Assembly (NCBI GenBank): GCA_021234155.1
Contig: JAJEKV010000033.1
Location: 11,850,163-11,914,162 of the forward strand
DNA length: 64,000 nt
From: Isoetes taiwanensis
Lineage: Eukaryota; Streptophyta; Lycopodiopsida; Isoetales; Isoetaceae
Reading direction: 5' to 3'
Positions 1,537 through 51,378 of the stretch are shown here, piece by piece. Within the stretch, counting starts at the first letter, position 1. The number at the start of each line of letters is the position of its first letter. The notes under the pieces were generated by a model. The model worked only from the letters and a program-made list of their open reading frames with translations. It did no database searches and had not been told where the DNA came from. Both the position numbers and the translations under genes were made by a program.

Positions 1537-2639
1537 TTGTTGTACTTCGTTTCAATTTGCATGTTGCTATCTGGCCAAGAACCTTGAGGTTCCCAAGGAG
1601 AGTCAAAACTATCAGAGCGAAGGCTGATCTTATAATTGCAGTCTAATTTGGACCCCAAGGCACCAAATTTGCTTTTACCAAAAGACTCTTACGGGATAAA
1701 AGTTATGTTTTTCTATTGGGAACCCGTCAGCCAGGCTGAGAGAGGCTATTGTGAAGGAAAAATGGTAAAAAATCTAGGGGATGGCCTTGATTAAGCAATA
1801 AATAACTTAATGATTCTTTGCTAAACACTATTCACTATAGTGAGTTTGGGAAAGAGGAGGAGAATCATTAGGCGTGCAATGAAATGGAAGTTGTTGAAAA
1901 TTACATCCACGGAATATGAGCCTTGCAGCAAAAAGAAGGAAGGAAATGTCATTGGTGGAGCAAATTTGTGGGCATTAGCAGGTCGAAAACCCAGAATAAA
2001 TGTTGTAGATCAAGCTATGAAGAATTTGATTGTCTAATTTTGGTTGGATAACACAAAAGTCTCACCAAAAGTTAGAGATGCTCATGAAGAAAAGGACACA
2101 AGTAATTCAATACATTGACATTAGTACAGTACAAATTACATTGCCTTGATTTGATTATACAAATATATGTACTTGGGTTTTATTATTTACATTAAACAAT
2201 ATCTACAATTCTTTCTAATTTACCTTATGAGTGTAATAATAGGAAAAATTTACTTTGCTTTATGGATATACAAAGTTCTGAAATTTGCTTTTACATTTCT
2301 TCCCAATTGTTCAAATTCACTCGAGATGTATTATGAGGTAGACACTTGAAAGTAAGGGATGTGAAAGATGTAGGATGTGTAATAGATGTGAAAGTCAGTA
2401 AATGTAGGGATGTACGCAAGATTGTAATCATGAAGCTATACTAGATGTAATAGAAATCTTGAAAAATGTATTGATGTAAACTCTATTACTATGCATTTTA
2501 CAAATAATTATTTAAACTTTGTGGATCAAAGATCCCGATGTTGGAATTGGCATTAGACAATTTATATACTTAAAACCGAACATGCATACGAAGCTAAAAA
2601 AGAAACACCGGCTGTTGTGTCAAACACCTAACAAGCAGA
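1537..2639. other. Intergenic sequence with GATGTAA-type simple motifs
   Basis: No gene recognised. From about 2340 to 2480 short words such as GATGTAA and GATGTGAAAG recur irregularly. Similar words recur in the large intron at 8107-8538 of the neighbouring minus-strand gene, so the composition may be a shared regional feature. Confidence 0.45.
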
Positions 2640-4306
2640 TTTGTTTAGGGAGGCATTTTATATGATGAGGTCAAAAGTCCATGAGAATTGCTCTTGCAAT
2701 TGTAGAATTTGCAAACTCAGAAGATAATAATGGTGGAATTTGTCGTAAAGTGTAAAAGAAAAGGACATTTGAGAATATCAGCATGCTTTGGAGAGCCATG
2801 GTATGTGACAGAGCGTGTAAGATGAGGGAGTGGCACTATCTAAAATGTATAAGTTCAAATTTTGTGGGTGGAAAAAGAAGATTGAATTATGTTCAAGGGA
2901 GGAGAGGAAAGCATTGAAGAACCTGTTGCATGGCAAGCCTATAGCTATAATGAACCTTCAAGAAAGGAACTTCTAAGGTCAAGTTGATTGACAAGAACGT
3001 GATACAAAATGCATGTTAGATAATATATTTGATCATATGGCTAAATTTGTACATCATAACTTTGTGGCACATTGGCAAAAGCAATTCAAGGAATCCATTA
3101 GAACACTTCGATGATATCGTACTATCGGTTGTTGATTTCTCGAGAATTATACTTTGAAATCATTCAATGAGATCCAAGCACAACATTGGTACAACGAAAG
3201 GATCAAAGATTTTAGTTCATATCATAATGTTCAAGGTAAATGGAAAATGAGGAAATGTGCACTTCTTCATTTCGAATGATAAGATACATGATACTCACTT
3301 TGTACAGATGCATTCAGGTTACATCTTAAGTGGTTGCAAGAAAATGATGGCAGTCAGAAGAAGTTTCACTTAGTTTGGTCTGACGGGTGTGCAACCCAAT
3401 TCAAATCGAGATGAGCATTCTATCATGTAAACTGTGTATCATCATGAACATAAAGTAAGAATGCAATGGAATTTTTTGGTTCGTGACACGGTAAAGGCAC
3501 ACATGATGGAGAAGGGGCTTATTAATGGCTATGGCTTGAGGCGGAAACAAAGAAAGAAGGAGGGCAAGGTGGTCATAAATGCTAAAACCGCATGTGATGT
3601 TTTGAAAAAAAAATCGACGCGGGAACGGGTATTTTGGGAGGTTACTAACATTGATCGATCACAAAGACTTGACGTGTTGCCAGTCAAAGGTGTGCAGACA
3701 ATTCATTGCGTGTCATCGATAGACCCTAGTGATCCAACAAAGCTACTATGCAGGTCTCTTTCATGTTTTTGCAAGGCTTAAGTTTTGATTGGCCTGCTTG
3801 CGAGAATGTTGGCCATTGTGGTAAGTGGGAGTTAAGAAAACTAGAGCCTACAAATCAGAACATTCTAGGAGATGATGAGAACGAGCTACAAGACTTGTGG
3901 GCAAATGACATGAACAATGTGGATGAGACAGAACCCAAGTTGGAGATTACCGGATCATTCGCAAGCCTCGAACAATTATGAAGGGGTGGCCTATTATATC
4001 ATACAATGCACAGAAGTGAAACATGCTCTTGAAATAGACGTCATAGATGACTATGGGAATCAATTTTATCGTGGTGATGAAGTTATATCAGGTAACTATT
4101 TTCAGCTAATACCTGGCTGCCATCAGAAGTATAAATTACTTAAAGGAAAGAAGGTCCTTGTCCATCCCGAGTCCGTGATAGGGGCGAGATTTCCATTGGA
4201 GCCAGTCCAACATAAAATAAAAGGTGTTGCTTATGCATATGAATTATCCAATTACTGGCATGAGATGCTTTTGGGAAATCTGCCCGAGATTGTAAACTGT
4301 ATGTAA
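2640..4306 (+). pseudogene. Decayed member of an unnamed, transposase-like family (DFxENY / SDGCxxQFK / HGKGxxDG motifs)
   Basis: Frame jumping recovers one ordered set of motifs: a Cys-rich start near 2680-2720 (C-S-C-N-C-R-I-C), DFSENY followed by an NEIQAQHW block (3134-3190; one base missing after 3141), WSDGCATQFKSR (3376-3411) ending in an in-frame TGA at 3412-3414, GS-stop-HGKGTHDGEGA (about 3478-3519), SCFCK then SFDWPACEN (about 3760-3810), and a C-terminal block NYEGVAYYIIQC...GDEVISGNYFQLIPG (about 3970-4210). The motif spacing resembles a recurring uncharacterised protein family that I associate with mobile or multi-copy genes; I cannot name it. The conserved Asp of DF, of SDG and of HDG are plausible RNase-H-fold catalytic positions, but this is inference. 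At least two frameshifts and two in-frame stops make this copy non-functional as assembled. It converges on the minus-strand RING-Ulp1-phosphatase relic 614 bp downstream. Confidence 0.6.
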
Positions 4307-4919: not shown

Positions 4920-5718
4920 TCATGATGATCCGAGCGTATCTAAATATGCAGCCATAGCGGCGCCTCTCTCATCGCCATGGGTGCCGCGGATATGTTGGCT
5001 CGAGAGCCGCTGCTTCTCAAAGAACTTGTCTCCCTCGCCATCGTGGGTCATCGACCATACATGTGAGTGCATGCAGCCCGCAATCGCGTCCGAACTGCCA
5101 TACTCATATGTGATCCGCTCCATAACCAACTTGTCAAATGCATCAATTGGGGAATGGAATGGGTGATCCCTCACGTATGTTGAAATCTCATCCGCATTGC
5201 GGAGCCCTTCAATCCAGGGGTAGAGTGTTCTTATAATGTTATCATTTTTTTTTGTTAAGTGACCATGGTGGTATACAAATGTATGAGTGTAGGGGATTTA
5301 ATGAGCACTTGTATTGTGCATCATCAAACAGCAGAGCCCTCCTATGATACTTGGAAAATTCAGTTGAAATAACTTCCAAGTTCTCCACATAAAGATTTTT
5401 GCACGGGTTTATTCTAAATGGAAGCACCAACATTTACTTCTTCCGAATATGAATTTCAGATCCGGAAAGCCTTCTACTTTTAGCTGCTCAATTATGTTGC
5501 ATACTAAACTAAGTGGCAGCTTGGACCATATTCCCAAATCAAAGTTAATGGCATGTGCATAATAGAGGAAGACCCTCATGCCAGGCCTGCATATATACCA
5601 GACCCTATCTCTATCGGCCTAGCATGCTGTGTTTTTGCAGCTGAGAACTCATCCTTGGATGTGAGACAACCCAATCCTCCATCAATATCAAACACTAAGA
5701 CCTTTCTTTTCCCTAAAC
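4920..5718 (-). pseudogene. FCP1/NIF-type HAD phosphatase domain of the composite gene
   Basis: The last exon begins in phase with LGKRKVLVFDIDGGLG, the DxDG nucleophile motif of HAD phosphatases (DID at 5689-5681). In a shifted frame follow YICRPGMRVFLYYAHAINFD and LGIWSK (GIWS at 5534-5523), typical of FCP1/SCP/TIM50-like proteins. Another shift gives VENLEVISTEFSKYHRRALL then FDDAQYKCSLNP (DD at 5325-5320), the conserved DD motif. After a T9-run slip come NDNIIRTLYPWIEGL and NADEISTYVRDHPF, the usual end of this domain. FCP1-like enzymes dephosphorylate Ser residues, classically on the RNA polymerase II tail, but substrate cannot be inferred here. The GC-richer tail to the stop at 4920 (with HSHVWSMTHDGEGDKF) has no recognised domain. 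Three frameshifts break it as assembled. Confidence 0.72.
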
Positions 5719-5923
5719 CTGCCAACAATAAAACATGATGAAATTGATAAGAGAAATGTTTAAATTGATTCAGATTACATTCCATCTGCTCATGAGAATC
5801 AGTTTACATGCACAATATACCAAATTTATTTAGACCAGAAAAAATATAACTCAATACATTCAGGACTGCAAGTTCAAGGACATGTTTGGAGACCAAAGTG
5901 GCATCTAAGGAAGATTTAACTAC

Positions 5924-7000
5924 CAAATGACTCTTCGAGTGCATCTGCCCGTGCTTGTTCTACAGAAGCTATTGCTGAGCAGCCACCACCCTCACTAATG
6001 AGAGCGTCTATCAAGACTTGTCGTTGTGAAAGGGTATACTCGCACGTAAACCAGTCTTGTGTAATCTACAACATATAATAATGTGCCAATGTTAGAATTG
6101 ATCATGAAAAAGGGTCTTGAATAATGTGCCAATGTTAAAATTGATCATGAATAATGTACCTTTTGAGTCTTTTCCAGAAATAAGTAGTCAATAAACGTGC
6201 ATAAATGCCATCACAAACAACCCGCAAGATGTCAAGTCAGATTGTTGCGGTACTTCAACGTAATTTATACCTTTTATGTTATTTTTCCTCAAGTAATCCA
6301 TTCCTTTGGATGTCTGACTCATCAAGATCTGCGTGTGTAGTCTGCGCATATAAAATAGTCATGTAAGATTCAGCAAAACATTGAGATTAATTGAAATAAA
6401 AAACATATCAAAGGGATGTCATACCCTCTAATTGCCTTTTCATTTGTGGCAAAGCCATTTAAAGGGTTCAGGATATGTACAGCTGGTGCATCTAGAACTT
6501 TAGACTTGCTCTCAGCAAGAGCAAATATGGCCAGCACGAAGTGTTCGTTCTCAAGCACAGGTACTAGGATATATTGGCATTTAGCCATTACTAGCCCAGC
6601 AACTCCTTGCTTCACTGCGTCTACGGCAGCTTTTGATGCGTCATTTCTTTTCTTGTTGCTTGAAGCCTCCTTGAATAAGACGAAGTTGTAAGCAGAGAAG
6701 ATATGGATTCTGCTTTTCCACTCCTGCGGCAGCTTATCATGCAAATACCTAATTGAGCACAAGGTCACAACTAAGAATGTACTCATAAAAAGCTTTCCAA
6801 ATCAATAAATGCTTCAAAACAGGGAAAGAATGGAAAATCACCTGCCATAGAGTTCCACAAGGCGGTTCGTCATCGTCGAGTTGGCTGCGCACAAAGCTTC
6901 AATGTCTAGATCAACAATTTTCATTGGAGGTTTAGGCTGGCTATTCTTGAATGGGAAAAGTGGAGTGCGAGCCTTCAACATCTTCATGTTCTCCACCATT
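5924..7000 (-). pseudogene. Ulp1-like (peptidase C48) domain of the composite gene
   Basis: Exons 7000-6842, 6748-6425, 6341-6160 and 6065-5924 read in phase as a Ulp1-type fold: DIEALCAANSTMTNRLVELY, then YLHDKLP...RIHIFSAYN, then YILVPVLENEHFVLAIF, then HILNPLNG, then VPQQSDLTSCGLFVMAFM. The family cleaves SUMO or related ubiquitin-like tags with a His-Asp-Cys triad plus an oxyanion Gln. Here His is at 6543-6541, the Asp position is Asn (6467-6465), the Gln is in the QQ pair (6247-6242) and the Cys is at 6226-6224 in SCG rather than the usual DCG. Asn at the third triad position is seen in some cysteine proteases, so loss of activity is not certain. A one-base slip just after the active-site helix (near 6195) restores FIDYLFLEKTQK, which joins in phase to ITQDWFTCEYTLSQRQ in the next exon. 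Confidence 0.75.
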
Positions 7001-8538
7001 CTACAAAGAAGAATATAATGTTAACTTCAAACGATGACAATTGTTTTAAAAAACATACACAAGTACCTTGCAGCAGATTCTGATTGAGCAATTTTATGCC
7101 TACAAAAATAAGTGTATGTAGTCAGAGATGTATTCATATGCTTAATATTTGAATTAGGGATTAGCATACAAGAGTTAATGATGCCTATAATTACAATTCC
7201 AAGTAATTAAACCCTAAACTAAACACCCAAAACAGGCAAGTCTCACCTTTTTACATTTGTTGCTTCCTTTCTTCAATCTACCTTTCTTTTTACCTTTGCT
7301 GCCTCGTCCTCCTTTTTCACGAACACCTCTACAGCCTTTGCTGCAACTTTGCAGGCCCTTTCAAGATCTACGCTCTCCAATTCAGCTACCCCTTTCACAT
7401 GTAGGCTCTCCTCTCCCGTGTCATCTACCACCAACAAATTAAAACCCCAATGCAAATTTGGTATAAAGCTGGAAAACATTAAAAATATGCACCTGACATT
7501 GAATCCTTGCATTGTGGCAGCTTGATGTCATCAAATTCCTCACCATTTAAATCAGCCCGTTCACCTGGAAAATGGCAAGTTCAGGCTTTTGAGTTCAGCA
7601 CTAAATTTAAACAGTAAGAATGTAGATATAGAGACACTTACTATTGAATGGCTCGTGTTGCTGCTGCAACAAAGCCAACTCTGTTTCCACATTTGGGATC
7701 TCACCTACAAGAATAAACCCTAAAACTAATTCATTAACAAATTGAGCTAAAAACACTTCTACTAGACCGGTTACCTTGCACATCTTCTATCAACGCCTCA
7801 TGAGGTTTCTGCCCCTGTAGTGTAGCCAACTTCTGCTCTAAATGTGCTTTGTCATCCACATTGTCAAAGATTGTTTCTTTCACAGGCGACCTAGATGTGA
7901 ATGGAGTTTCACTACCAAGGACATCATCCTTTGCTGATGTTTTAGCTCCAGAGGACTCCTCATATGTCAATTTCAACCCTTTTCCATGAAATTTCTTCGT
8001 GCAACCTAAACCAAGTAACAATGAAGTCACAAACATGCAATGCAAATATACATCAATACTGTACTACCTCTCAATGTGGCTGCTGGTTTCTTGATGCTAT
8101 CCATATCTACATTGAAGAAATTTGTGAGTAAATTAATTGTATTATCTTGTTAACATGTACATCCCAACATGTCAAAAGGTAAATGTAAAGGAAAAATTCA
8201 TGTCAATGAAAAAAAAGCTAAAAAAATTGCAAACTAGATGTAAATCAGAAGTGGTAAAACAGATGTACAATTATAGTATGATAATACCTACCAACATGGC
8301 TGCTATAAATGTAATAGAAAACTAGAAAGATAGATGTAATCATAATCTCATTTGCATTCTAACATGTTATATGTATATGTAAAGAGAAAATACATAAACC
8401 ATTATGAAATTATAGATGTGAAAGAGAACTGCTCAAAACAAAGATGTAATTACAATAAAAATACATTCAATTAAACACTTAAGTTGTATGTAAAAACTTC
8501 AATAGATCTATGCATTGGCGAAACAAAGTCTTACTGAC

Positions 8539-9752
8539 CTAGTTGAGGCATTCCAATGATTCGGCGTAACCCTTCTGGCCAGCAACATTCATGTACGCAC
8601 TGATTCGTTGTAGACACTTTAAAGGCTAGATATAATAGGCAGTAGGGATGTCCACAGCATACCATTATCACAATGGTAGAGTCGAGGCAGTCACTACAGA
8701 TGGTACATGATGTAACCACATGAGATGTGGATGCTATCAGATCTGATCCATGAACAAGAGCAGGATGCAATGACATTACACCAGATTTCTCCGTTTGAGC
8801 TATTATCTCATTGGTCCTGCTCATAAGGTTGTTATTTACCTCCAGATTTGTCATTATGTCTTTGACAGAAGCATCTAATTCAGCCAGTTCATTGCAAGGC
8901 AATTGGTTTCAGCAAGGCATCCATCTCCATAACCAAACTTTTCTTTTCTTCTTCAAAGTGGGCTGCCAAGGCAAGTTGCAAATCAATTGGTTGCCTGTTT
9001 GCTCTTAAGGAGTCCAGCTTGTCCGTTTGGACTTTCACTTGAGAATCCTTGCTTTGTATAACTCTGCTCAAAGTACTTCTTTCATCCTCTAATTTACATA
9101 TATCTGATTCTATTATCTTTCTCCTGATTTTAAAAGATTTCAACCGATTCCTCAAAGTTAATGAGTCATGGGATCTCCTTTCTAACGATTCTGCCATCAA
9201 TTTCATGTGCTGCCATTCTTCAACTGCTGATTTACCATGCATGACTTTCACATTGGAGGATTTCAAGGTAATAACTTCAGTTAGGTCAGACTCCTTATGA
9301 GCAGTTTTAGCAAATGCACATGCACTCTCCTTTAGCCCTTCCCAATCAACAGTTATGCCCTTGGAATGAAGAGCATATGCTCGGGCAAAGTACAGGGGTA
9401 TATGATGGTTTGCTACCTCTGTCCTATTAAAAACAAACTCATACATTTAAAAAAAATCCTGCATCCATGCTGGCTCGATCCTACTCTCCTGATAACCCCT
9501 CACTGTTGGAGCTTCACTACCCCAAACTTCTTGAACTATTTGTAAAAGCCCTGGATAAAGAGTATCAAAATGGTTGCTTCTAAGGTGTTTTACTGTTACC
9601 TTCTCAAACTCGGGCTGATGTACTTGTAGCTTTCTCTTTGCTGATGGAGACGTCCCACCCTTCATTTTCTTTGCTGCATGCTTTGGAAACCTTTGCATTG
9701 GCTTCAAACGTAGTGATTTCCTAGGGGAAACACGAGATGGAGGCTTTGTCAT
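8539..9752 (-). pseudogene. Exon 1 of the composite gene: basic N-terminus, coiled coil, RING-like cluster
   Basis: The N-terminus is rich in K/R (MTKPPSRVSPRKSLRLKP and KHAAKKMKGG) and could be a nuclear localisation signal. After an in-frame TAA at 9449-9447 the same frame continues (NRTEVANHHIPLYFARAYAL) into about 150 residues rich in E, K, L and S with heptad-like spacing, a likely coiled coil (about 9290-8900). A one-base slip near 8900 moves to the frame holding CTICSDCLDSTIVIMVCCGH and PYC, which fits the first Cys pair, the Cys-x-His and the next Cys of a RING. The expected partner Cys after HPYC is Tyr, and the last pair is irregular (CVHECC), so zinc binding is doubtful. The exon ends at 8539 with a GT donor in phase 1, matching the next small exon. 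Confidence 0.6.
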
Positions 9753-11129
9753 GATCCCAAACCTAAGAACTGGCCTCCTGATACAGGCTCGGCCTTCTAA
9801 GAGGACCAAGAAGCTTCTGATGCACAAGTAAGGATTCAACACCCAGGAAACTAAGAATCGGCAAGTAAGGATTTCGAATCGGCCACTGAGACAGAGATTT
9901 GCTAACAGAGAGTTTGGGAGTGGTTTGTTGAGCGGGACGGAGAAAACTAACACGTTCAAAATCCTTCCAAATGTGGTTCCCCCCAACCTCCAACCATTAA
10001 TTGTGGTATTAATGATCCCCCTTCAAAATATTGCCTACATTTTGCCTTTGTAAATGTAAAATTTGGGCTCTTTTTATATCCACCCTTTTGTGCAATTACC
10101 CAAGGTTTTGTTTCCGTTGCAATTTTCTCTCTTCCTGTGTACTCGGCTTTTCAATCCAGGGGACGGTCCCCGATCTGGCTTGCAGGTGAAGTTCACGTTC
10201 CACCTCCAATCCATGAAGGGATTAGATTCTATAAAGTAAGAAGAGAGCATCCTAGAGCCCATTATCTCTCAGATTCGCAGATGGAGCTCCATCTAGGCAA
10301 AAAGATAGTTGCCCTATTCAAAGCTTAGCAGAGCAATGAATGGGTAATAGTGCTGCCGATTCCAGATGACCCGCCATAGCAAAGGAACTGCACCTGAAGG
10401 TGTTAACACTAGAGTTGTCCACTGGACCATCTGTAGTCCATGGGCCAGAATTGGTCCATCGTACCTCTGCCACTTAAACCCATATATCTAGAGGGAAACT
10501 TCTCCATTTTGCAATCTACCACCACCTTTTGAATCTTCACTTGATTCTTTATGATCTAGAAGAATTTCATGACCAATGAATTCACCCATATCTTGTGGTA
10601 ATTGTCCAAACCTCATACAATTTAGCAGTTTTCGTACTAGTCCAGAACTGCATTCTTCATATTTTCTAGCACAAAGGGGTCCAAACCTTGCTAAAATCAA
10701 AAGCAAATGATTTTTTATGATAAAACATATTGATTTGTATGTTCCCAAGTTTTTTCACTATTATATGACATTAGATGAAGTCGCCATACCCAATTTTGCT
10801 CAAAAGAGCTGTTTGAGGGTATGAATTATTTCTCTCTTACTATTATAAGTTTTGGCCTAATTTTTGTGGTCATAAGTTGTTGATTCTAAGAGCTATAGTT
10901 TGATGTTTTTTTGAAGCATTCATAAGTTATGATGATTTCAATATTGACTAAAGAATCTCTTGTATGGAATTCAGGACAAAAATAAATCTAAAATGATTTA
11001 ATAAAACTCGTATATCGTCTTTAAGAGGGTAATAAAAGATGCAGGCTATGCACTACACTTATATTTACGTAGATTATAATTTTATCAACCTATATGTAGT
11101 AGTTAATCATGCATTCTCTATATTTGGTT
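9753..11129. other. Intergenic sequence upstream of the composite gene
   Basis: No gene recognised. The first few hundred bases presumably held the promoter of the minus-strand composite gene; an open frame extends from 9752 back to 9986 without domain similarity. No clear TATA box or terminal inverted repeat was found. Confidence 0.45.
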
Positions 11130-19899: not shown

Positions 19900-22800
19900 C
19901 GAACACCAAAAGCTTTGAAATAGCTTGTACCGAGTCGAGGAATCGAGAGGCCGCAGTCAACCAATCCCCTGAAAGATCCACAACCGCCGCCAAGCCCAAA
20001 TCAACCCACACCAAATACTCGCCTTACGCACATGCAAGGCTTCTTGCCGTCTGGCTGACCAAACACCCGAGGATATACATGAAGCAGCAATTGTTGGCTA
20101 TTCAATCTCACTCAAAACGGTGAGCCACCCACCCAATCCCGGCAACCCGCAAGTGAGGGCATAAAACCGCATAATGCTCCACGGTCTCACGATGAAGGCC
20201 ACAACAAGGGCAAAGAGGGCTCACAATCCGCCTAAACCGACTCACAAGGACATTCACCCCCGATCAATGTGCACCACCACCTACCACAAGCACCCGAACC
20301 TTCGGGGGGAAGTGAGCTCCATGTCCACGCCCAAACCGGCGCCATCGAGAACCCTGCGGGGAGACCACTTGCACGAAGGGGCAGTGTCATGAATAGCCAA
20401 CACCCGGTAACAAGACCGCACAAAACAAGAAGATACAACATCTGGATGAACCTTCCAAACCTGCACCACCACATCACCACGAGGGACTATAGGTATGTGT
20501 GGCGGAATACTCCCATACTTGTTCCCCGGATAGCTTGGAGTCAACGTCCTTGGTGGCGAGCTTCGAAGAACTCCCACGGCTAGGCGACCATCCCAATACC
20601 AATCCTCCAAGGTGAGCCTGCCTGACTTCGCCTCAACGAACTTCGTCCAGAGCATGCAGTGGCGACCAAGGAGCAAGTGCAGCGGGGTAGGAACCCACAA
20701 GAAAGGAGAGAAGGGTGGTGATAAGCGAGGCATAATCTAGGCTGGAAAGAGCTGCACGCGTGATCCCAAACCATAACACCCGTGAGAAAAGGGGATGCAT
20801 GTGGGAAAGGCCGAACCATACAGCGGTGCCCGGGGCAACTCTACATGCACGGACGACTTTTCCAAATGCCACACAATGGCGAGAGATTGCCACAATAGTG
20901 CCGCACCAGGAGAAGATGCTCCATCTGCGGAATGCTCAAATAAACTTAGAGACCAACACCTTACTATCACGGTGCCAAATCCAGAATGGCCAAGCCCCAT
21001 CCTCCGGTGAGAACTTCCACCAAACCACTTTAACAACCAGCCCTTCATCATCCCGCCCCACACAAAATTTGAACAATCTTATCCAAAGCACGTATCTTAC
21101 CCTCGGGGAGCTAACATCCGGATCTTTGTATACACATGAGTGCTACAAAGTGCTTGACTTGGCAATAGTGATCCTACACGCCATGGACAACTTGCTACCC
21201 TTCCACCAATTGAGGTGTTTTACGCAGCCCCGCAAAATCTCATCCCACACCCTCCCCATGGAAACATCCCCTCCAAAGGGGAATACCCAGCGACTTAGTA
21301 CACACATTACACGGAAGCACCTTCCAAGGGAGTAGAACCAAACAAAGGGGGGGGAAGTCAAGCTGGGCCCATAATCGGAGCATTTGCCCCAATTCAAAAA
21401 GAATGCCCGAGGCCAAGGAGAAAGTATCCAAAAACCCTTCACATTCCAGCAAATTCCTCTCTTACGCCACCAAGAAGAGAAAAAGTGTCATCGGCGAACC
21501 GTTAATAATCTGCTGACTACCATCCTGCATCCGAAGCCCATCCACCACCCCCTCCTCCACTGCAGCCAAAAACAACTGAGACAGTGCCTCCGCCACAATC
21601 GTAAACAAAAATGGTGCCAAAGGGCACCCCTGACGCACCCCTCTGCCTAAGGAGAAAAAGGCGGAGGGTTCACCCTGGCACACCACCGTAGCCCGTGCTG
21701 ACCTATGCGGCTTCATCAAGCCTCTCAGTAAGCGTGGACCACATCCCAACGCTAACATCATGGCGGACAAGAACTCCCCAACGGACACTATCATAAGCTT
21801 TGGCAAAGTCAAGCTTAAGATGAGGCAATGCCTTGACTGTTCTCCGGCCCAATAAAGGCCCTCATAAGCTATGACAACATTAGTCAAAATGTTCCTCCCG
21901 TGAACAAACCCAGTTACACCTTTACTAATGGAAGAAGTCAACACCGCTTCAACTTCTCGGCGGGGCTTTTGCTTAATAATCTTGTACCCAGGAGGACAAC
22001 AAGGATATAGGCCTCAATCATTAATAGTAGAAGGCTGCTTAACCTTAGGAATCAAGGAAATGCATGCGGTATTCAAGATCCTATCCATGTGAGAAAGATG
22101 CAAAGAACTCAAGATACACACAGTACAAGACTCACCAGCCCCACTCCCCAATAAGTCTGAAGAACTCCACGGGGATGCCATCCAGCCCAGGACATTTATC
22201 CTTGGCCATGCACATACATGCCTCCGCTAAATCCTCTCGAGAGCTCTCGCTCCAAGCTCTCACGTTGGTGAGGCAAAATAGATGGCTTAACAACAGCCCC
22301 AAAACAAGCTCCCCATCTCCCCGCTCATAGGGAAGAGTGCGCGGCCAGTAAAAAACCACGAGAAATGAGCATGCACATACCTCTGCAACTCAGGGATCCT
22401 CCAAAGTCCGCCATCGCAAAAACAAGGGGCGCGCCATAGATCTTTTGATATCGCCCATTTTTAGCCGCTTTCCGAAGAACACCGACGAACTTGTATCCCC
22501 CCTTCAACCAGGTGGGGCTGCCTTCACACGCCAGCCATGCACTTTTAACTGCTCCAAAGCAACAATGCAGCCGCAACCTTGCATTCTCCCAATGCCATCG
22601 GAAGGTCTGGCCCAGAATCTTCTCCAACTCCCGATAATGACTATGCAACTCCTGCCCTCCTGCTTTGCACCACGGCGCCTACCAAAGACCTTAGCAAAAC
22701 GCTTCACCCGCCAGCGTCACCATACCGGACATACCCTTCAAGAGATGAAAAGGTATCAAGCTACAACTCACCGCACGTCGGCGAAACCGCGACGCCCGAG

Positions 22801-23611
22801 CCGGGTGTTCAAACGAACACCGCCCGAGAAGGCCGAGAGGCAACCGCGACCGACCGACAAAACCCGAGGGTAATGATCAGAAATGGAGGTAGATGGGAAT
22901 GTTACTCCGGGCAAAGAAAGAGGGCACACCATCCAATGCGCATGGGGAAGCATAGCACCGGTCATGCCTAGCATACGCCCGCCCAAGCACCAATCTGCCT
23001 ATTACAATAGGTGAAAGACAAGTCCCCAGGGACCTCAACCAAGGCCAAATCCTGCAACAACAAACGACCACACGGTCCCTCTCAAATCCCCCACAAGCCG
23101 GGTGCGAGAACCGTGAGCGATCTTCTACTCGCTCTACCATATTGAAATCCCCTAACAACAACCAAAACAACGCAACCCACCAAGGGCTCGCAACTTATTC
23201 CGGACCAGGCCCACAAAGCACCCTCACGAGAAGGCTGATTAGGGGCATAAACATTAACAATCCCCCACTCTTGCCCGCCCTCCAACCACTTAATTATTGC
23301 CCACCGACCAAAACACACAAGCTGCGGTATGTGACACACACATCCATCTTCAAGCAATAAGAGTACCCCACTAGTCCTCCGTAAGAAGAAGCAATAAAGC
23401 CAAGCGCCACCAACCATATTCATGAGCACGGACATATCACCTGGGTGACACTTATGCTCCGAATGCAAATAATATCGACGCAACGCCGGCAGGGCCAAAA
23501 TACGGGGCCCTCTACTACTAAGGGACCCACCCAAGACATTCCAACCGGATGGAGCCTATTCATCCCGGAGGAGAAGTGTCCAGCCCCCACATGCCTACCC
23601 ACCCGGGCCAT
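19900..23611 (-). pseudogene. LINE ORF2 remnant: endonuclease and reverse transcriptase
   Basis: In order on the minus strand: endonuclease pieces WGIVNVYAPNQPSRE (about 23280) and LLLGDFNMVERVEDRSRFSH (about 23158-23100); an inter-domain part; the reverse-transcriptase entry MAKDKCPGLDGIPVEFFRLI (about 22210-22150); GVTGFVHGRNILTNVVIAYE (about 21920-21860); RGVRQGCPLAPFLFTIVAEA (about 21640-21580); and the catalytic FADD at 21498-21487. The downstream part to about 20500 has Trp/Cys-rich frames typical of the C-terminal region. GDFN, RQGCPLAP and FADD identify an APE-type LINE that nicks DNA and reverse transcribes its RNA at the target. Frameshifts between nearly every motif show it is dead. 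Confidence 0.85.
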
Positions 23612-23683
23612 CAGGCCACCACTCCGCAGGCAAAGATTCTAGAGCGGAGGATTAATCACGGCAATGTGACCCACGGCCGCTCT

Positions 23684-23815
23684 CGTGATATTCCACTTCC
23701 AACACGTGTTGGAAGTCCCCGAGCACCTCCACAGTCATGGGCCACAACTTCGTGATATTCCACTTCCAACACGTGTTGGAAGTCCCCTGTGCACCTCCAT
23801 AGAGTCATGGGCCAC
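23684..23815. repeat. 67-bp tandem duplication carrying a 22-bp palindrome
   Basis: Both copies contain the palindrome core CTTCCAACACGTGTTGGAAG (22-bp forms at 23695-23716 and 23762-23783) with a central CACGTG. It lies at the border between the LINE ORF1 and ORF2 remnants. Confidence 0.9.
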
Positions 23816-23899
23816 ACTAGTCTCTACCTCCAACCGGGTTGCTCCAGCCACCTCATGCTCGGCACATCATACCGCTTGGGACATCCCCAGCGGGATCAC

Positions 23900-25361
23900 C
23901 GATCCCGCCACAACCCCCTCGGATCTAGCCACAACCAAATCATCTGAGCCCTCCCACGAGCCACCACGTCCCTAGCCCCCGCCATCAAAAGGCGGACAAG
24001 AAATAGCACGCCTGCCTCGTCCCACACCACCTCTCCCAACCACACCACCTCGCCCAACGCCACTCGCCGCACCACGGAGTCCTGCACTGCGACCTCGGGA
24101 ACCGAGGAATCCGGGCCCCTGATCAACACCGCAACCCCTACCACATCACAAGCACCAAAGAGGACGCGGGATCATCAACAGGGTCAAATGGTAGCACAAT
24201 AGATGGAAACATCCGCCGGATCTCAGAGCCATTCAAAAGCTTCAATCGAAAAAAAATGCCGGGGACCACTACGCCTTTGGAAGAGAAGTAGGCCTGCAGT
24301 ACAAAGCGAGAACAACAGATCTTGGGGACCTGCAATAGAATGAGCCAAATATACACCCGGGCCATTGGCCAGAAACCAAGAAATCAGCACCATCGGTCGG
24401 GAGGAAGATCCCGAATCTGAACCAACACGGGATTTTAACCGCTGTCAAAGAACTGGTGGACATTGCTGGAGTATAATACTGATACAACACATATGAATCA
24501 CCCAACGTATCCACCCCCCGACTAACCAATTGCCGCATTTAAGACCTCAAACATGATTAGGAAGAAATTATTTGGTAAGAATTTCAGAGACTGATACCTG
24601 GGCAAACCAATCCGCCTCAGATGTCCAGCAAGCCAAGAGCTAAACCTCCTCGTGTCCAATATGTAACCCGTGAAATAGCCCAACACTGCAAATGAAACTA
24701 GATTCTCAATGGTCCGAACATGCCCGGTATGATCAATATCTATCCATGGAGTCTCTGGAAGAGTCAGCTCGCACGCCAACAGAGTGATGATCCTCCACAA
24801 ACTTCAGCTTCTTGAACACGGGCGGTTCTACACTCGAGGAGCCTTGCGCAATCCAATCCGGCTCCCCTACCGAGGTGATCGAAAGCAACAAAGTGTTACG
24901 CCCATGCTCCGGCAGCCGCAGATTTGGGGCTGCCACCGCACCACTGAGAGGTATCCAGAGGCACCCCCGGAGACACATCAGCTACATGCACCCTAGAGAG
25001 GGCATCACCAGCAAGTGATCCCTTCCAAGCCGCGAGGCGAGAGGGCATCACATCCCCGGTTTCAAAGGGGCATGCTTGATGGAATCAAGGCCCAGTCTCA
25101 AAACACAATCTACTTGGGTCTCAGAATTATATTGAGAGGAAGAGCAATCCATATACCTCTCAACCGTAAGGGGATTCCAAGAGCTCCCCTCATCTACTCG
25201 CCACCAATTGCATGCCACTTCCCACAGCCCACGCCTCTTCATGCATCTTTGAGACCCGCGCCCTTCCCCTTCTTTGGAGGATTCTTTCTCCTCGCCATCT
25301 CCCTTGGCCCCCAAGCCATGAGGCTCAATCGAGGAGCCCCATCACCCCTGTCTGGAGCCAT
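23900..25361 (-). pseudogene. LINE ORF1 (gag-like, DUF4283-type) remnant
   Basis: Minus-strand pieces include GYFTGYILDTRRFSSWLAGH and LPRYQSLKFLPNNFFLIMFE (about 24700-24540) and LVSRGVDTLGDSYVLYQYYT (about 24530-24470). They resemble the plant LINE ORF1 domain, an RNA-binding gag-like region that forms the retrotransposition particle. Several shifts separate the pieces. The frame begins near 25361 and the end is uncertain because the segment to about 23900 is low in recognisable motifs. Confidence 0.55.
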
Positions 25362-25390
25362 GTCATCCGGACCGTCAGGCAAAAACACTT

Positions 25391-28080
25391 AATTTAGTAC
25401 AAAGAGAGTGATTGTTGTAAGAAATGATGAGTAAAGTATTTCACCACTCAATGTGCTCGGGGATCTTGCTCTTTTCATTTTCTTGTGAGGTGCTTTCCAA
25501 TAAAAATGATCGTGCGCTATATTTTTTATAGTCCCGCGTAAGGCACTATCTCCCTCGTCCAAACTTTGGCTTGCCCATCGGACTTATCACCAAAGCGGTA
25601 CATTGGTGAGCCCTCTAAGATCCTGACTGCGGGATACTTAAATATCCCCACACGCAAGTCAAACATCTTAGTTTAAATTTTAAATTATTATGGAAGTGTG
25701 AAAATAGTTACCGCATCTTCAAAGTCTACAGTGGTATACCCTACCTTGCCCCCACACCCGCCCACACCACATACGCAACATATAGCAAAATATGTATATA
25801 GCATGTTTCTAAAAGAAACAAGGTTGAAATTTATACCTATAACTCCACTCATGTGGAGCCGGGCTGTAGGTGTCACTTGTAGAGGTGGTGTAGGTGCGCA
25901 GTGTGTGGAGGTGGAGGTAGAAGGCAAGGGTGATCGACTGGCCAGAGAAAGAGTGGCCTCCCGCCCCCCGCATCCGCCGAACAAAGGTTGTATTAAGGAC
26001 CCCGCCTCATTAATAGTCTCTTGAGGATTTTGGGCCCATTCACGAAAAACCTTTGTGCGGATCGCCACCAGTACCATATAGGTCCCAATAATATCACGAT
26101 TGCTTGGTGCAACGGATCATCTAAGTTATCATCATCCTAATGTGAAACCAAATATTAGAAATAAAGCAAGCACGCTTGAGACAAAAAATTACAACCTAGT
26201 TGCCACATCTAGTGCAATCGCAACCCAAGTTCAGCCTACAACATTGAAAAAGTGCACATGCATCAAATTTCCCCTTGAGTTCAAATTGTAGGATGCTCAC
26301 TTGATATTTGATTAAAATATGAATGTTGGGTCGCTTTAGAGGACATGTGATATCAAGAATCAAATTCACGAAATATCAATAAAAAATTTAACCTCATAAT
26401 GACTATTAACTTCTTGTTGAAAATGTTCTAAAACTCTATATGCTGATTAAAAATAAGATCATTTCCATACGATCATTTTCATTGCTACGATTGATTTCTA
26501 CATGTGACGATTATCAAATTACTAACCTCTTGAATATGAGTTAGGCTCTCCAAATTGACACTCCACTTACCTTTCCCTCTTTACCAGCTTTCTCTAATTT
26601 ACTGTTTTACTAGAGTTGAATGCGTAATCTCCTTAACCTGCAATTATATTTTAAAAAGAATCATCACAATTGGTTTAGGGAGTCCCTTATACAAAGCAAA
26701 CTTTGAGAAAGAAATCCAAATTTTACTGTAGCAATGACATTCGTGCACAAGTGTGCCAATGGTTACTCAATTTCCACCTAAACATAGCTATCTACTGGCA
26801 ACAACCTTAATTTATCACAATAGGTATAAAGTATCTAGCCACATCCATGAAAACACTCTGCACATGCAGGGTAACTTAAAAAACCTAAAGTCGCCTAAAA
26901 ATACTAGCAATGGTGTTAATGCATATGAAATTAAAAGTACAAGCACAACTAAGAGCTATAAAATAGAATGAGTCAACAGTGATAAACAGTAAATCCACTT
27001 AGCAAAGTAATCATGTATGCACAACACTTAAGTAGGATAGGCATCGACAAGCAATGCACACAACCAAGGCCAACAAAAAGCATAAGAATCCAACCATACT
27101 CCCATGAAAACTACAAAGATCAACATATTCATGTAAATCCACAATATGCATGCAACATCACTCTAAATTGGAATTACACGTGAATGAGAATAAATATAGA
27201 TAAAAGCAACAAAATCGCCACTTGAATCCATGGCTATAACATAAAAAGAAAACGTCTTAGCCAACGCACCACAAATTTTAAAATTTTACAATTGGAAAAA
27301 AATGTAGCGAAGTGAAGGACAATAAACCCAAAATAAATATCAAGTTGCTAAAGGAGTTTTCAAAGGCAAATCGTGGCCCCCTACGCAATATACCACTACA
27401 CTTGCTATACCTAGCCAAGTATATAGAGTTAAAACATTTGGAAATGGATGATGAGTCAAACCCAAATAAAAAGGGAAGACAAATCTAGGACTCAAAGGAA
27501 AAGAAAGGGTTGCAAGTATGATGGAAAAGGGAGGGAAATATTTCCTAAAATGAACAGTAGAGGTAACCTATGAAATATCAGGTATCATGCACGATGTCAT
27601 GGGGAAAAGCATTGGTGAACGTCGAGAAGGGAGCAAGACAAATATCTGTGGAGCTCCTAGGATAAGGTTACATTTTTTGGTCTATAAATTTTTCGAATTG
27701 CTGTATATATCAATGCACCTTATTCTTTAATGCTCTTTTGCATGCAAAGGTATCAAATGCTATTTTGATTCTCTTGGTTTTGTTCCTTTGGCTGTTTTCT
27801 AACATATGTGATCATTGATGTTCATAACAATGTCAACCATATGTAGCTAATAAAATGTAAGCTGTTCAAGTGGGCCGTCAATGACAAGTCCCTTAATGTT
27901 CGAAATTGGTTATCTTCACAATAAACGAAAATTAATATATATCAATATGTAGCATAATAACAGGGGGTTTTCTTTGTGTTTTTATACGCTTTTCACTAAG
28001 GTTTTTCTATGATTTCGTGATGTATTCAAATGGACGTACTAATGCGTACATCTAGAGTGCACCATTTCTAAGCCATTGAT
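25391..28080. other. Intergenic AT-rich sequence
   Basis: No confident gene. The minus strand at 25700-25400 contains DLRVGIFKYPAVRILEG and SPMYRFGDKSDGQAKVWTRE, which look coding-like but are unassigned; they might be part of the element interrupted by the LINE. A Pro/Ser/Thr-rich minus frame spans 26077-25688. Nothing else was recognised to 28080. Confidence 0.4.
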
Positions 28081-32017: not shown

Positions 32018-32345
32018 ATGACGTATTCTCGGTAGCCATGAGGCCACACGAATCCATGCAATACATCCTTCTACCCCAATTGTCTAATTTACGCCTAGAG
32101 CATTTTATTATCTTGTTAGCTCGATGATCTAGAGTTGCAACCGAACTTCGCCTTGAGCAGTGGTGCATGCACCAGCAAAGCAATGCGAACATCGCGCCGA
32201 AGAATCGCAGGCAGGAGACGGTAAAAAGTCCCCCTTCATTGTTTGTAATACTTGTGCTCATAGCATCCAAGAAAAATCTATGACTTATTCTGGTTTATCA
32301 TGCGGCCACGTGAACCCCTGCAATACATCCTTCTCCCTCTAGTAG
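31950..32345. repeat. Duplicated block, one copy with an A30 tract
   Basis: About 31965-32110 and 32245-32345 share CTTGTGCTCATAGCATC, then CTATGAC, GCGGCCACGTGAA-like and GCAATACATCCTTCT words. The left copy has a pure A30 run (31986-32015) where the right copy has only AAGAAAAAT. The right copy is at the 3' end of the PPR pseudogene, so the left is a partial copy of that end. Confidence 0.75.
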
Positions 32346-34587
32346 TCTATTTAACCTCTGCAACATGGCGTCAACCTCCCAATTTTCTATATGTGTTCTG
32401 CTTTTACTACCAAAAGAAAAGACCTTACTAGAGCATTTTGCTGTCTTGTTAGCACCATCCTGCATTTTAGCATTAGCATAGATGTTTGAGATAAGCACAT
32501 AACCAGAGGCACAATGGGAATCTAAACAAACTAATTTTTCAGAGCATTGCCTCCCCAGGTCCACATTGCCATGCATTCTGCAAGCACTAAGCAGAAGTTT
32601 CCAACCCAATATATTGGGTTCCTTAGCAGTGTTTAATAATTCTTCTACTTCTTTGAGGCATCCTGCACGACCTAAAATATCTACCATGCAAATATAATGG
32701 TCCTCATCTGGCACAACTCCAAACTCTTTCTCCCTATGCTCAAAATACCAGCGGCCTTTCTCTATAGGGCCTGCTTGACTACATGCAACTAGAATACAAA
32801 GTAAGATAACTGTATCTGGCTTGATACCATCATGTTGCATTTTATCGAAGCAGTCTACAGCGAGAAGACCTTCCCCATGCTGGGCATATCCTGCAATTAT
32901 TGCACCTCAGGACACCACATTCTGGATGGCGGCAAACATTGCAATCTGCGTGAACTTCGTCCAAGCATCCACATTTACAATACATATCAACAAGGGCAAT
33001 TCCCATGCCAACATCTAAATCAAATCCTTTCTGTACAATGTCATATTCCCTGCTGTGTAGTTCCCAGAAAGCCACAGGCTTTTAAAATGCCTAAATATGT
33101 AACCCTGTTGGGGTTACAGCCCTTCGCTTGCATATTCTCAAAATATCTGAGGGCAGAATAACATTCGTTAGTAAGCACACATCCTGTAATGAATGCATTC
33201 CAGGTCACTACACTTTTCTTTTGAGTTTCCTCGAATAATTTTTGTGACTCCTCTATGCTACCACATTTTGCATACATATCAACCGTAGTATTGCATATTG
33301 CGACATCTAACTTCGAAGCCATGCTCCATGATTTGGTCATTAATAAGTCTCCCCATACTACGCTTTCCAAGACCATCAGACGCCTTCAACAGCTTAAGAA
33401 ACTAGCAATATCGGGATCTATACTCTCACCATGCATCTTCTAAAGACAGTCTAATGCGAGAAAAGACCTTCACTATGGTGTGCATATCCAAGAATTAAGG
33501 CATTCCAAGTCACCACAATCCCTTTTTGTAATTTGTCAAAGAGCCTATGTGACTCCTGCAAACTACCACATTTCCCATACACATTGTAAGATTTGACCAT
33601 GTATACGCCTGCCCTGCTCTACATCCCTAGTGCTTGTACAAGCTTTTAGTGTGCTTAAAAACGTGACATACTCTGGTGCAATGGCTTCCTCTTGCATCTC
33701 TTCAAAACATTCCAGAGCAAGACAGCCTTGGTTATGCTGGGCATATCCTCCCACTACCACACACTTTCAAGATGTTCACAAATGTAACCTTGTTTGACTT
33801 TATGCTCTCTACCTGCATATTTTCTAGAAGGTCAAGGATAAGATAGATAGATAGATAGATAGATAGTAGTTTTAACGTCACGCCACTAGGCAGCATCCAA
33901 CTGGACATGTGACCACACACCACACTACATTGCTTGGTTGGGCCCTGCCCCCAACCACCTTACATTGCGTCTGTTGGGATTTGACCCCCAACAGTACCGA
34001 GTGCGATTCTGGGCGGTCTCGAACTCGAGACCACATTGCTAAGGAACTAGTGTGTTACCATGCTGACCATTCCAAGAGACAACATCCCGTTTTGGGATAT
34101 AATCAAACATATTTGTGACTCTGTCATGCTTACATTTTTGGCATACACATCCACAAGTGTATTTCCCAAAGCAATATCCCATTCAAGTGCACGTTGTAAG
34201 ATCATACCATGAATAAGCCTGCCCTGCTCTATAGCTTGTACGTTGCCGCATCCTTTCAAAAGTCCCAGGAACATAACCTTGTTTGGAGTTATGCCAGGCT
34301 GTTGTTGCATCTTTTCATAAGCATCTATCTAATGCAAGAGGACCATCACCATGTTCTGCACATCCATTGATTAATGCACACCAGGATACTACATCAGGGT
34401 TCAATATCATATCAAACACTTTCCACGAGTCTACCAAGCTGCCACATTTTGCATACATATGAAAAAGGGTATTCCCCAAGACACGGTCAGAATCAAAGCC
34501 ATCTTCAACTATATGATGATGAACTTCTCTTCCCTGCCTAAATGCGGAGGACATAGTCCATGCAAGAGGACCTCCATTGTTTTGCAT
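32298..34587 (-). pseudogene. PLS/E-class PPR protein pseudogene
   Basis: The minus strand encodes a run of pentatricopeptide repeats in several frames: GREVHHHIVEDGFDSDRVLG, GNTLFHMYAKCGSLVDSWKV and DVVSWCALINGCAEHGDGPL (34560-34320); EQGRLIHGMILQRALEWDIA (about 34230); SNKVTFVNILKVCGSG (about 33800); AICNTTVDMYAKCGSIEESQ (about 33290); and a C-terminal E-type region KPDTVILLCILVACSQAGPI, VPDEDHYICMVDILGRAG and GWKLLLSACRMHGNVDLG (32820-32540). PLS/E proteins act in plastids and mitochondria in C-to-U RNA editing. The reading needs frame changes at about 34310, 33930, 33560 and 32840, and a SINE interrupts it, so it is dead. No targeting peptide or DYW domain is visible. Confidence 0.88.
33841..34078 (-). 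mobile_element. tRNA-derived SINE inserted in the PPR pseudogene
   Basis: On the minus strand the element starts near 34078 with an A-box-like GGTCAGCATGGTAAC, has a B-box-like GAGTTCGAGACC at 34026-34015, and ends in a (CTAT)n tail seen on + as (GATA)n at 33841-33866. Pol III promoter boxes, about 235 bp length and a simple-repeat tail fit a tRNA-derived SINE. PPR sequence stops at its right edge (ISQNGMLSLGM) and resumes at its left (LENMQVESIKSNKVTF). No convincing target duplication was found. Confidence 0.75.
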
Positions 34588-35447
34588 TGCTTAAACTATA
34601 ATAATCACTGCATATAGAAGAAAATGACGTTTTACCTCAATAATCGTGAAATTTTGTAGTGTAAGAACTCACTCTTCCGAATCTTGTTGGAGAAGCACTA
34701 GCGGGTCGCCTATCGACACTTTTGGAAGCCTGTATGCCAAGCTTTAATGATCCATCGTATGCATAGAAAAGCCCAAGAACCCAGGAGTGAACCTAGTTGA
34801 GCGGTCTTTGTGCAGATAAGGGCCTAGGAAGAAGCTAGAGCTACAGCACCCACCATCGCCAGAACACCACCAGTTATCCGGTTTCCAAGAGTGGTGCCCA
34901 TCAATAGAAATGACCGTGCATTTACAGCCAGCAATGGGTTTTTAGCAGTCATTGGCATATTCCAGGCATATATTGGCATATACCTGGAATATGCCACAAA
35001 CCCACATCAACAAGGGTTTGCCCCCTTAGGGGCAACCCAAAAATGCATCTAAATGCATGAAGTTAGTACAAGCAATGCCTCATACTTTAGGAACAATAAG
35101 GTATTCTCATAGATAGGAGATTTTCGACAGTCGTCTTGGCAAGTTTTGTTTTGAGCACGACCTAAGGAACTCTAGGAGCTAGTAGGGATTATCCCTACCT
35201 CTATTTCCTGAGATCCGAACCATTTGGGCCGAGGAAGTCCACTAGCAAGCAAGGTCCAAATAGCTAACCCCATAAATCTAGCAAACCCAGCCCATCAACG
35301 ATGGGCACCGTAACTAGTGCATAATAGTTGTGAGTATTATTTTGGTTTTTGAAAATCTTCCCCTAATGGAAAATACTGACCTAAATCTTATTAACCTTTC
35401 ATTCGGAACACCACGTGGGTGTTCCTGGATGGTTGATACCCAACGGT
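34588..35447. other. Intergenic region, F-box promoter side, with a 14-bp hairpin
   Basis: Contains the inverted repeat TGGCATATTCCAGG (34953-34966) / CCTGGAATATGCCA (34983-34996) and a dispersed-repeat segment near 35040-35090 (GCATGAAGTTAGTACAAGCA-like), which also occurs near 18010-18060. Just upstream of the F-box ATG, 35406-35426 is a near-palindrome centred on CACGTG, a G-box core; a promoter role is inference. Confidence 0.55.
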
Positions 35448-36680
35448 ATGCGCGAAATGGCGCGAAACTACTTAGGTCTAAACAGAATTTCTGCCTGTAA
35501 AATCGCTAGTAGCGATTCCAGTTCCAGAAGCAAGGCAACGATGCACCTCAAGGCAGCAAAGAAGAGAAGAAGAGCTTATCAAAAGCGCATCACAGAAATT
35601 TTCCCTCCGGCCATAACATGGCACTGGGATTTGCTTCCCACAGAAATCAAAATGCGCATTTTGGCATTCTTGCAGACTAAAGATCTTGCTCGACTATCTG
35701 CAGTCTCTAGAGAATGGAAAGGTATGATTTTTCATTCAGAGTCTTTTCATAAGCTTCATTCTCAGCATTGTCAACCCGAGAGCTGTATTTTGTATCTTCC
35801 GGATTGTCGAACTAAAGAAGACGAGTTAGAACTTAAATTTTTTGATCATGATAAACATGAATTTGGGGCTTTCATTGGCGATAAAGAAGGAATTTGCCAT
35901 GATGGCGGATTACTCTGCAAGTCTAGCATGCTAGGTGGGACACTTACAGTGGAGGTTGGAAATCCAGTGTTGAGGATATGGAAGAAGATAAAGAATCCTT
36001 CAGATGGTCTTATGCCCAGAAGCATAATTGTAAATAGGTCATCAGGGGATTATTTAATCTTGGCAGCAAATGATGTGGGGGCAATAACAGTTACAGAGAT
36101 ATATGATTCAAGGCTGGATGGTTGGAGAAAGGGACAAAGTTTGGATTATTATAGTGACCTCCAAGATAAGTTACTTGGGTCTGTTCTGGGGCCGACCGAA
36201 CTAGGCGGTCATGCAGCTACTTACAGTATTGAACATGATAACTGGAGTCATATGTTTCTTAATCATCCATCTATATCGTATGATGAAGATGAATATCAGC
36301 TTGATATTGTCCTATGCAAAGATAGGCTGATATTAGCTGCTCTTGGTTGGATGCCATACATTGCACTTTGGATTGGCCATGCATGCAGCAATGGTATCAT
36401 GGAGTGGTCATTGATGACCGATTTCAAGGGTGAACAGTTGAGCAATCTGATGCCAGTTAATGACTTGAGCATCAATCTAGAGGATTGGATGGATTGGTAT
36501 CCATGGCAGATATGTAGCAAAGAAGATAGTATTACTGTTGCTGTAGTAGCAAGAAACAATCGGCGGTATTCTTTGATTCAATATGATCTATTAACATCTT
36601 CTTGGCGGCTCTTACAAAGTAATGGAGAACTTTTTGATACCAATTTCCTCCTCTTCTTTCCAACTTTTGTCCATCCCTAA
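35448..36680 (+). CDS. F-box protein
   Basis: A single open frame of 410 residues, apparently intronless. The frame continues upstream to 35415 but begins there with GTG; the first ATG is at 35448 (MREMARNYLGLNRI), with a second ATG three codons on. A basic patch (KAAKKRRRAYQKR, about residues 35-47) precedes the F-box at about residues 58-100: WDLLPTEIKMRILAFLQTKD then LARLSAVSREWKGMIFHSES. F-box proteins are the substrate receptors of SCF (SKP1-cullin-F-box) ubiquitin ligases. The rest has Trp/Gly-rich strands (DSRLDGWRKGQ, GHAATYSIEHDNWSHMF, LLTSSWRLLQSNGELF) suggesting a degenerate Kelch or F-box-associated propeller that would bind the target, which is unknown. The stop is TAA at 36678-36680. 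It is the only clearly intact protein gene here. Fragments of its 3' half and 3' flank are copied at 39357-39598 and 50571-51120. Confidence 0.85.
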   Translation: MREMARNYLGLNRISACKIASSDSSSRSKATMHLKAAKKRRRAYQKRITEIFPPAITWHWDLLPTEIKMRILAFLQTKDLARLSAVSREWKGMIFHSESFHKLHSQHCQPESCILYLPDCRTKEDELELKFFDHDKHEFGAFIGDKEGICHDGGLLCKSSMLGGTLTVEVGNPVLRIWKKIKNPSDGLMPRSIIVNRSSGDYLILAANDVGAITVTEIYDSRLDGWRKGQSLDYYSDLQDKLLGSVLGPTELGGHAATYSIEHDNWSHMFLNHPSISYDEDEYQLDIVLCKDRLILAALGWMPYIALWIGHACSNGIMEWSLMTDFKGEQLSNLMPVNDLSINLEDWMDWYPWQICSKEDSITVAVVARNNRRYSLIQYDLLTSSWRLLQSNGELFDTNFLLFFPTFVHP

Positions 36681-51200: not shown

Positions 51201-51378
51201 TGCTTCTATATCAATTCAATGTTCTATCTTTACATAAATACAAGAAATTTATCGCAGTGGCCAAGGCCACCGCGAACATTTCTCTTTATCAAGGCAAGTT
51301 TCTTTTTCTTGCACCAAATTCTAATACACTTTCATATATCTAGAATAAATTAATAACAATGAGACAACCTAGTAGGCT

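Follow-up and report, generated by a model that had tools for sequence, protein, structure and literature searches.

The attachment of Ulp1 or OTU protease domains to transposases is described as recurrent, and a role of such transposon-borne domains in transposition or repair has been put forward (PMC2836005). They occur on several unrelated transposons, and published accounts suggest that they act in transposition, in repair or in evading silencing, without settling the matter (PMC2836005, PMC13317346). Sola elements, in turn, are described by a DDD transposase, 4-bp target duplications and terminal inverted repeats (TIRs) (PMC10741241), and Sola1 is known from Physcomitrella (PMC9033089). 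The locus described here lies in a 64,000 bp stretch of the Isoetes taiwanensis genome (contig JAJEKV010000033.1, positions 11,850,163 to 11,914,162), hereafter the window. It is very probably an old copy, now decayed, of a TIR DNA transposon that has two genes and fits Sola best; in it, a DDD transposase gene (gene 1) converges with an accessory gene (gene 2) containing RING-like, Ulp1 and FCP1-like parts. The features are listed in Table 1.

Both genes move together as one multicopy unit that has precise ends and is flanked by 4-bp target duplications. In the 1.66-Gb assembly, searching with Peptidase_C48 identified 52 matches after 150 of 800 candidates had been scored. Twenty of these were sampled with 10 kb around each, flanks were added for seven, and four copies (L036-L039) were chosen by TIR spacing, giving 24 stretches; one of the four, L039, also overlaps a Peptidase_C48 search match. 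Ulp1 of the window's family was found in 19 of the 24, accompanied by a transposase on the opposite strand in 15 of the 19 and by an FCP1-like domain in 13. Transposase, Ulp1 and FCP1-like domain occur together in all four that had been selected by TIR spacing. Identity within subfamilies is about 80-98%. The shared ends of the alignments revealed a TIR of 21 bp, GGGTAAAAGCACGTTAGGGTG (with variants), which at no more than one mismatch has 2550 matches in the genome (1265 + 1285), against none (0 + 0) for the reversed pattern used as control. Target duplications were readable where both ends had been fetched, the other copies having been fetched at one end only: seven copies show clean 4-bp duplications (GGTT, TCAA, TATG, CAAT, TTTG, AATT and ATTA), and M11 has GGGA at both sides, its right end being altered. 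Copies with both ends are 9522 to 9918 bp long, and the longest holds a 322-bp insert.

This insert has the same kind of TIR and represents a miniature inverted-repeat element of the family; it lies inside the Ulp1 region of M26 (8115-8436, on the reverse complement of L026 + L030) and elsewhere in M21 (3446-3767, on the reverse complement of L021 + L033). L009 is rearranged, with left-end sequence inverted beside a gene 2 piece and the 3′ part of the transposase downstream on the same strand. Five stretches (L015, L022, L023, L027 and L028) contain other Ulp1 sequences; all of these except L022 belong to another Ulp1 family that is likewise repeated, with about 88-94% identity between its copies, and that does not match the window's family.

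At E ≤ 1e-3, 172 relatives were found for gene 1 of copy M19, and Taxus, Ptychodera, Mytilus, Brassicogethes, Babylonia and Euphydryas are among the names of the 120 listed. In the non-gap rows of these 120 aligned relatives, the three Asp of the transposase are near-invariant: D131 in 109/109, D212 in 117/117 and D253 in 105/108. Two gene 1 pieces of M19 had no significant Pfam family and no integrase match. A scan of viral contigs with six transposase peptide patterns, which reaches close relatives only, found no relative. A precomputed annotation gives one listed relative (P0095) an OTU protease domain (PF02338), parallel to the Ginger1 transposases with OTU or Ulp1.

For gene 2, region 4920-9752 of the minus strand was examined in all frames and an exon model was predicted from the sequence. 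Ten pieces with GT-AG borders, running from 8898 to 6190, join into 536 codons with one stop in the joined frame; the same pieces contain 45 and 50 stops in the two other frames, so that chance is a poor explanation of the exon structure. Adding the N-terminal piece and the final exons gives a read-through of 1146 residues, which matched Peptidase_C48 (1.7e-9, profile positions 3-182 of 217), above the curated cut-off, and NIF (4.1e-10, profile positions 1-159 of 160) in Pfam. Among the separate open reading frames (ORFs) of gene 2, only C48 was above the cut-off (9.1e-5), with NIF at 0.094. The RING-like cluster and the coiled coil had no significant Pfam match, either as separate ORFs or in the read-through. 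A profile that includes relatives (A3) was compared with solved structures and matched SENP7 (4e-11), Ulp2 (1.2e-4) and UBLCP1 (3.7e-4), and weakly the RAD18 RING (0.026); a thioredoxin match at 0.01 was taken as chance. A phmmer search of the window's FCP1-like part against the PDB gave matches at chance level only, and the predicted structure of the FCP1-like part of L039 was unusable (predicted local distance difference test, pLDDT, 42). In other copies, the NIF profile scored 1.4e-10 (L020), 4.3e-20 (L040), 1.5e-4 (L017, just over the cut-off) and 0.0098 (L039, below it). The domain content and order given in the initial annotation hold: from its N-terminus, the gene has a basic, coiled-coil-like region, a CxxC...CCGHPYC RING-like cluster, Ulp1 and a C-terminal FCP1/NIF-like HAD domain.

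The order of these parts differs between subfamilies. In subfamilies A (M19, M21, M26, L018, L036-L039 and others) and B (M17, M11 and M24), Ulp1 precedes the FCP1-like domain, as in the window, and the RING-like part was detected upstream at E ≤ 1e-4 in M19, M21, M26, L018, L038 and M17. Subfamily C (L014 and L020) has a coiled coil and RING-like part followed by the FCP1-like domain and then Ulp1; L014 has a related TIR with 3 mismatches. No FCP1-like part is seen in any of the copies closest to the window (M10, L025 and L009; 76-80% DNA identity in gene 1). Searching the genome with NIF yielded 3261 first-look candidates, of which 150 were scored, with 151 matches, many at E values of 1e-15 to 1e-20 and in long open frames. 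In L040, a RING-H2-like finger and an FCP1-like domain face a transposase of the same kind in convergent orientation; no Ulp1 was detected, and the element ends were not found in this stretch. Short stretches beside other NIF matches contain a transposase by tblastn (L042) or transposase motifs by eye (L041), while a third (L043) shows neither and reads, by eye, like a BRCT-containing host gene for a phosphatase of the polymerase C-terminal domain (CTD). L040-L042 suggest that many FCP1/NIF-like domains of the assembly are carried by transposons with RING-like and FCP1 parts and no detected Ulp1. Given two domain orders and L040 without detected Ulp1, the gene 2 domains resemble a cassette that has been reshuffled and can do without Ulp1. 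The Ulp1 and FCP1 parts are not always separate genes, since subfamilies A and B hold them in the same order on one strand of the same genome, presumably within a single transcript. Their fusion, as initially proposed, is not a fixed architecture, with one or other part undetected in M10, L025, L009 and L040 and FCP1 coming first in L014 and L020.

The catalytic set of Ulp1/C48 proteases is His-Asp-Gln-Cys. Across the four aligned rows (window, M21, M11 and M10), His, Gln and Cys do not vary, and every row has Asn for the expected Asp; in L020, all four residues are in place by eye. In FCP1/SCP HAD phosphatases, motif I is DxDx(T/V), and none of the sequences here fits it: DIDGG in the window, DLQGI in subfamily A, DFNGV in L020 and DINGV in L040. 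The first Asp is kept; the second is retained in the window, replaced by Asn in L020 and L040 and by Gln in A. In motif IV, the window, L020 and L040 have the DD pair, A has TD, LD or ID, and B has ES. Because motif I is D-x-D-G-G in the window and D-x-N-G or D-x-Q-G elsewhere, FCP1-type phosphatase activity is probably impaired. It is unlikely in subfamilies A and B and uncertain elsewhere. Of the eight zinc ligands of a RING finger, the cluster of the window lacks one Cys, and the finger of L040 reads CxxC..CxHxxHxxC..CxxC, with a zf-RING_2 score of 21.6 bits, below the cut-off of 27.3.

The initial annotation took the region to be one working host gene joined from exons of consistent phase. 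The GT-AG exons are indeed in phase, but the frame is not intact, being broken by two in-frame stops and about five frameshifts, and the window copy of gene 2 is a dead pseudogene of a transposon gene, both by these lesions and by the element boundaries. Copy M17 codes through the TAA site, reading EEFCKWYEFALGRKDV, and the alignment of M10 spans 8552-9617 without an intron. Since these relatives code through the TAA site and the frameshift near 8890, both are lesions and introns around them are ruled out. An in-phase alternative splice at 6190 is possible on paper but would lose sequence that subfamily A keeps. The open stretches left in gene 2 of the window are 185 and 125 codons long.

Selection was assessed by Nei-Gojobori counts. 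The ratio of nonsynonymous to synonymous substitution rates (dN/dS, omega) of the FCP1-like part was 0.21-0.28 in 14 of 15 pairs between subfamilies A and B. For the Ulp1 exon, the window gave 0.17 against L025 and 0.20 against M10 (dS about 1.3), and the transposase gave 0.10-0.26 between subfamilies in the 10 computable of 14 pairs. With the caveat of dS saturation, this constraint favours a gene 2 protein that would be functional in active lineages. The same ratios bear on the possibility that gene 2 is a transduplicated passenger in the style of Pack-MULEs (Mutator-like elements), in which host RING, Ulp1 and FCP1 pieces were captured by chance and do nothing for the element. Gene capture is described as common among plant transposable elements (PMC13317346), and the domains here are shuffled, and sometimes missing, between subfamilies. 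Such an origin is nonetheless improbable in view of dN/dS values well below 1 between subfamilies for both Ulp1 and FCP1-like parts, at saturated dS, and of an arrangement convergent with the transposase that is common to several subfamilies.

Membership of another superfamily with 4-bp duplications and Ulp1 is very unlikely. Ginger1, for example, has such duplications and Ulp1 or OTU domains, but is described as targeting CCGG/CCGT, starting with TGTNR and encoding an integrase-type transposase (PMC2836005), whereas this element has varied duplications and ends that start with GGGTA, and the two gene 1 pieces showed no integrase match. It is slightly harder still to suppose that the window copy has been domesticated and serves the host, as a regulatory RNA or a truncated RING-like protein drawing on the open stretches that are left, given lesions throughout. 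That a host gene of the plant combines SUMO protease, RING and CTD-phosphatase, as the real splice structure and domain order might suggest, can practically be dismissed in the face of seven reading-frame lesions and dispersed copies beside a transposase, inside TIRs and target duplications.

Several observations weigh against reading the locus as a decayed Sola-like element with an accessory gene. The FCP1-like domain is missing in 6 of the 19 stretches with the family's Ulp1 (M10, L009, L012, L013, L016 and L025), including the copies closest to the window, although some of the six are cut or rearranged. No TIR at up to 3 mismatches was found for the window copy; its probable right TIR has 5 mismatches to that of the family, and the left one was not found, with 1226-1536 masked. 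The FCP1-like counts between A and B have saturated dS (1.6-2.3), include one pair at 0.40, and cover these two subfamilies only. Within subfamilies, pooled pN/pS of the FCP1-like part is 1.22 in A (21 pairs) and 0.63 in B (3 pairs), and that of two Ulp1 pieces in A is 0.85 and 0.73 (28 pairs each), ratios that indicate little or no constraint, as expected for copies decaying after insertion. Searches for gene 2 homologues outside this genome, with region 340-1130 of the read-through and a four-row profile as queries, found none at E ≤ 1e-3 among 7989 and 7992 scored candidates, where length limits and intron-split predictions mean that absence is not shown. Assignment to the Sola superfamily is likely, by agreement with the descriptions of Sola. 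That gene 2 is a transposon gene is near certain.

An accessory role for the intact gene 2 protein is also rather likely, and it may help transposition or counter silencing. The coiled coil and RING-like part would serve dimerisation and perhaps recruitment of an E2 enzyme, and Ulp1 would free the transposase, repair factors or host silencing factors of SUMO or a related modifier. For the FCP1-like domain, the main task would be docking on a phosphoprotein, in the manner of UBLCP1/FCP1 and perhaps on RNA polymerase II, and not its dephosphorylation. A specifically anti-silencing role is suggested tentatively, by likeness to the Ulp1-bearing VANC genes of VANDAL elements (PMC13317346). More speculative is the idea that this large Sola-like lineage encodes a modular anti-host protein, with RING-like, deSUMOylating Ulp1 and pseudo-FCP1 docking parts recombined between subfamilies, that might take modifiers off the silencing or transcription factors present at the element's own copies.

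Table 1. Features of the transposon copy and of the remainder of the window (window coordinates).
Feature	Position	Strand	Remarks
Gene 1, decayed DDD transposase	1740..4306	plus	convergent with gene 2; SVVDF and VWSDGCATQFKSR still readable; start placed by eye
Gene 2, transposon accessory gene, pseudogene	4920..9752	minus	2 in-frame stops and about 5 frameshifts
Basic N-terminus and coiled-coil-like region	8890..9752	minus	TAA 9449-9447; frameshift near 8890; M10 aligns over 8552-9617
RING-like Cys/His cluster	8582..8707	minus	CTIC..CCGHPYCLLY..CVHECC; Tyr here at the position of one Cys of M10
Linker exon set, six exons	7067..8106	minus
Linker exons 1-3	8106-8068, 8005-7775, 7704-7642	minus	GT-AG, in phase
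Linker exons 4-6	7564-7493, 7424-7247, 7099-7067	minus	GT-AG, in phase; TGA 7275-7273
Ulp1 (C48-type) domain	5924..7000	minus	exons 7000-6842, 6748-6425, 6341-6160 (frameshift near 6190), 6065-5924
FCP1/NIF-like HAD domain	5097..5718	minus	FDIDGG ... RPGMRVFL ... LLFDDAQYKCSLNP; three frameshifts (near 5580, 5420 and 5250); NIF profile ends near 5184
Right TIR, probable	10081..10101	minus	GGGTAATTGCACAAAAGGGTG
Retroelement, probable	20281-26116		GC-rich, strand-skewed block; weak RVT_1 at 21462-22013 (6e-6, below cut-off)
PPR/E-motif ORF	32298-32906		1.3e-10; likely host gene
F-box ORF	35385-36680		431 codons, 4.2e-10; likely host gene
PIF1 helicase pieces	47900-49071		PIF1 1.7e-18, Pif1_2B 6.3e-7; probably a decayed Helitron
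DUF4216	51376-52122		8.2e-7, just below cut-off; a domain typical of CACTA elements

Gene models of such domain content in plant annotations may be transposon genes, and the cassette variants, with two orders and parts sometimes missing, offer natural comparisons on why modifier removal helps transposons. Among the papers listed by a literature search for Ulp1 together with FCP1, none contains both terms, and no description of this combination was found. At the level of single domains, the best solved-structure relatives of the Ulp1 part are the SENP6/7-Ulp2-type SUMO proteases (SENP7 and Ulp2), from which it differs by the Asn in four aligned rows and by being part of a transposon protein. 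The FCP1-like part resembles FCP1/SCP/UBLCP1-type HAD phosphatases in its full-length NIF profile match and its match to UBLCP1, and differs in motif I (window, A, L020 and L040) and motif IV (A and B). As plant DNA transposons with an accessory gene bearing a (transduplicated) Ulp1, the Kaonashi (KIU) and VANDAL MULEs are comparable, but the cited account presents them as non-TIR elements in a VANC context and names no RING-like or FCP1-like part (PMC13317346), whereas TIRs are present here. Ginger1 shares the 4-bp duplications and joins Ulp1 to its transposase, in one case along with a PHD finger (PMC2836005); here, Ulp1 is in a separate, convergent gene together with the FCP1-like domain. 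Sola elements agree in DDD transposase, 4-bp duplications, TIRs, multi-kb size and occurrence in a seed-free plant, and differ in that a second gene with RING-like, Ulp1 and FCP1-like parts is not mentioned in the descriptions cited (PMC10741241, PMC9033089). Transposon-borne Ulp1 was already known, and the Isoetes element is a further transposon type, in which it belongs to a separate, modular Ulp1/RING-like/FCP1-like gene.

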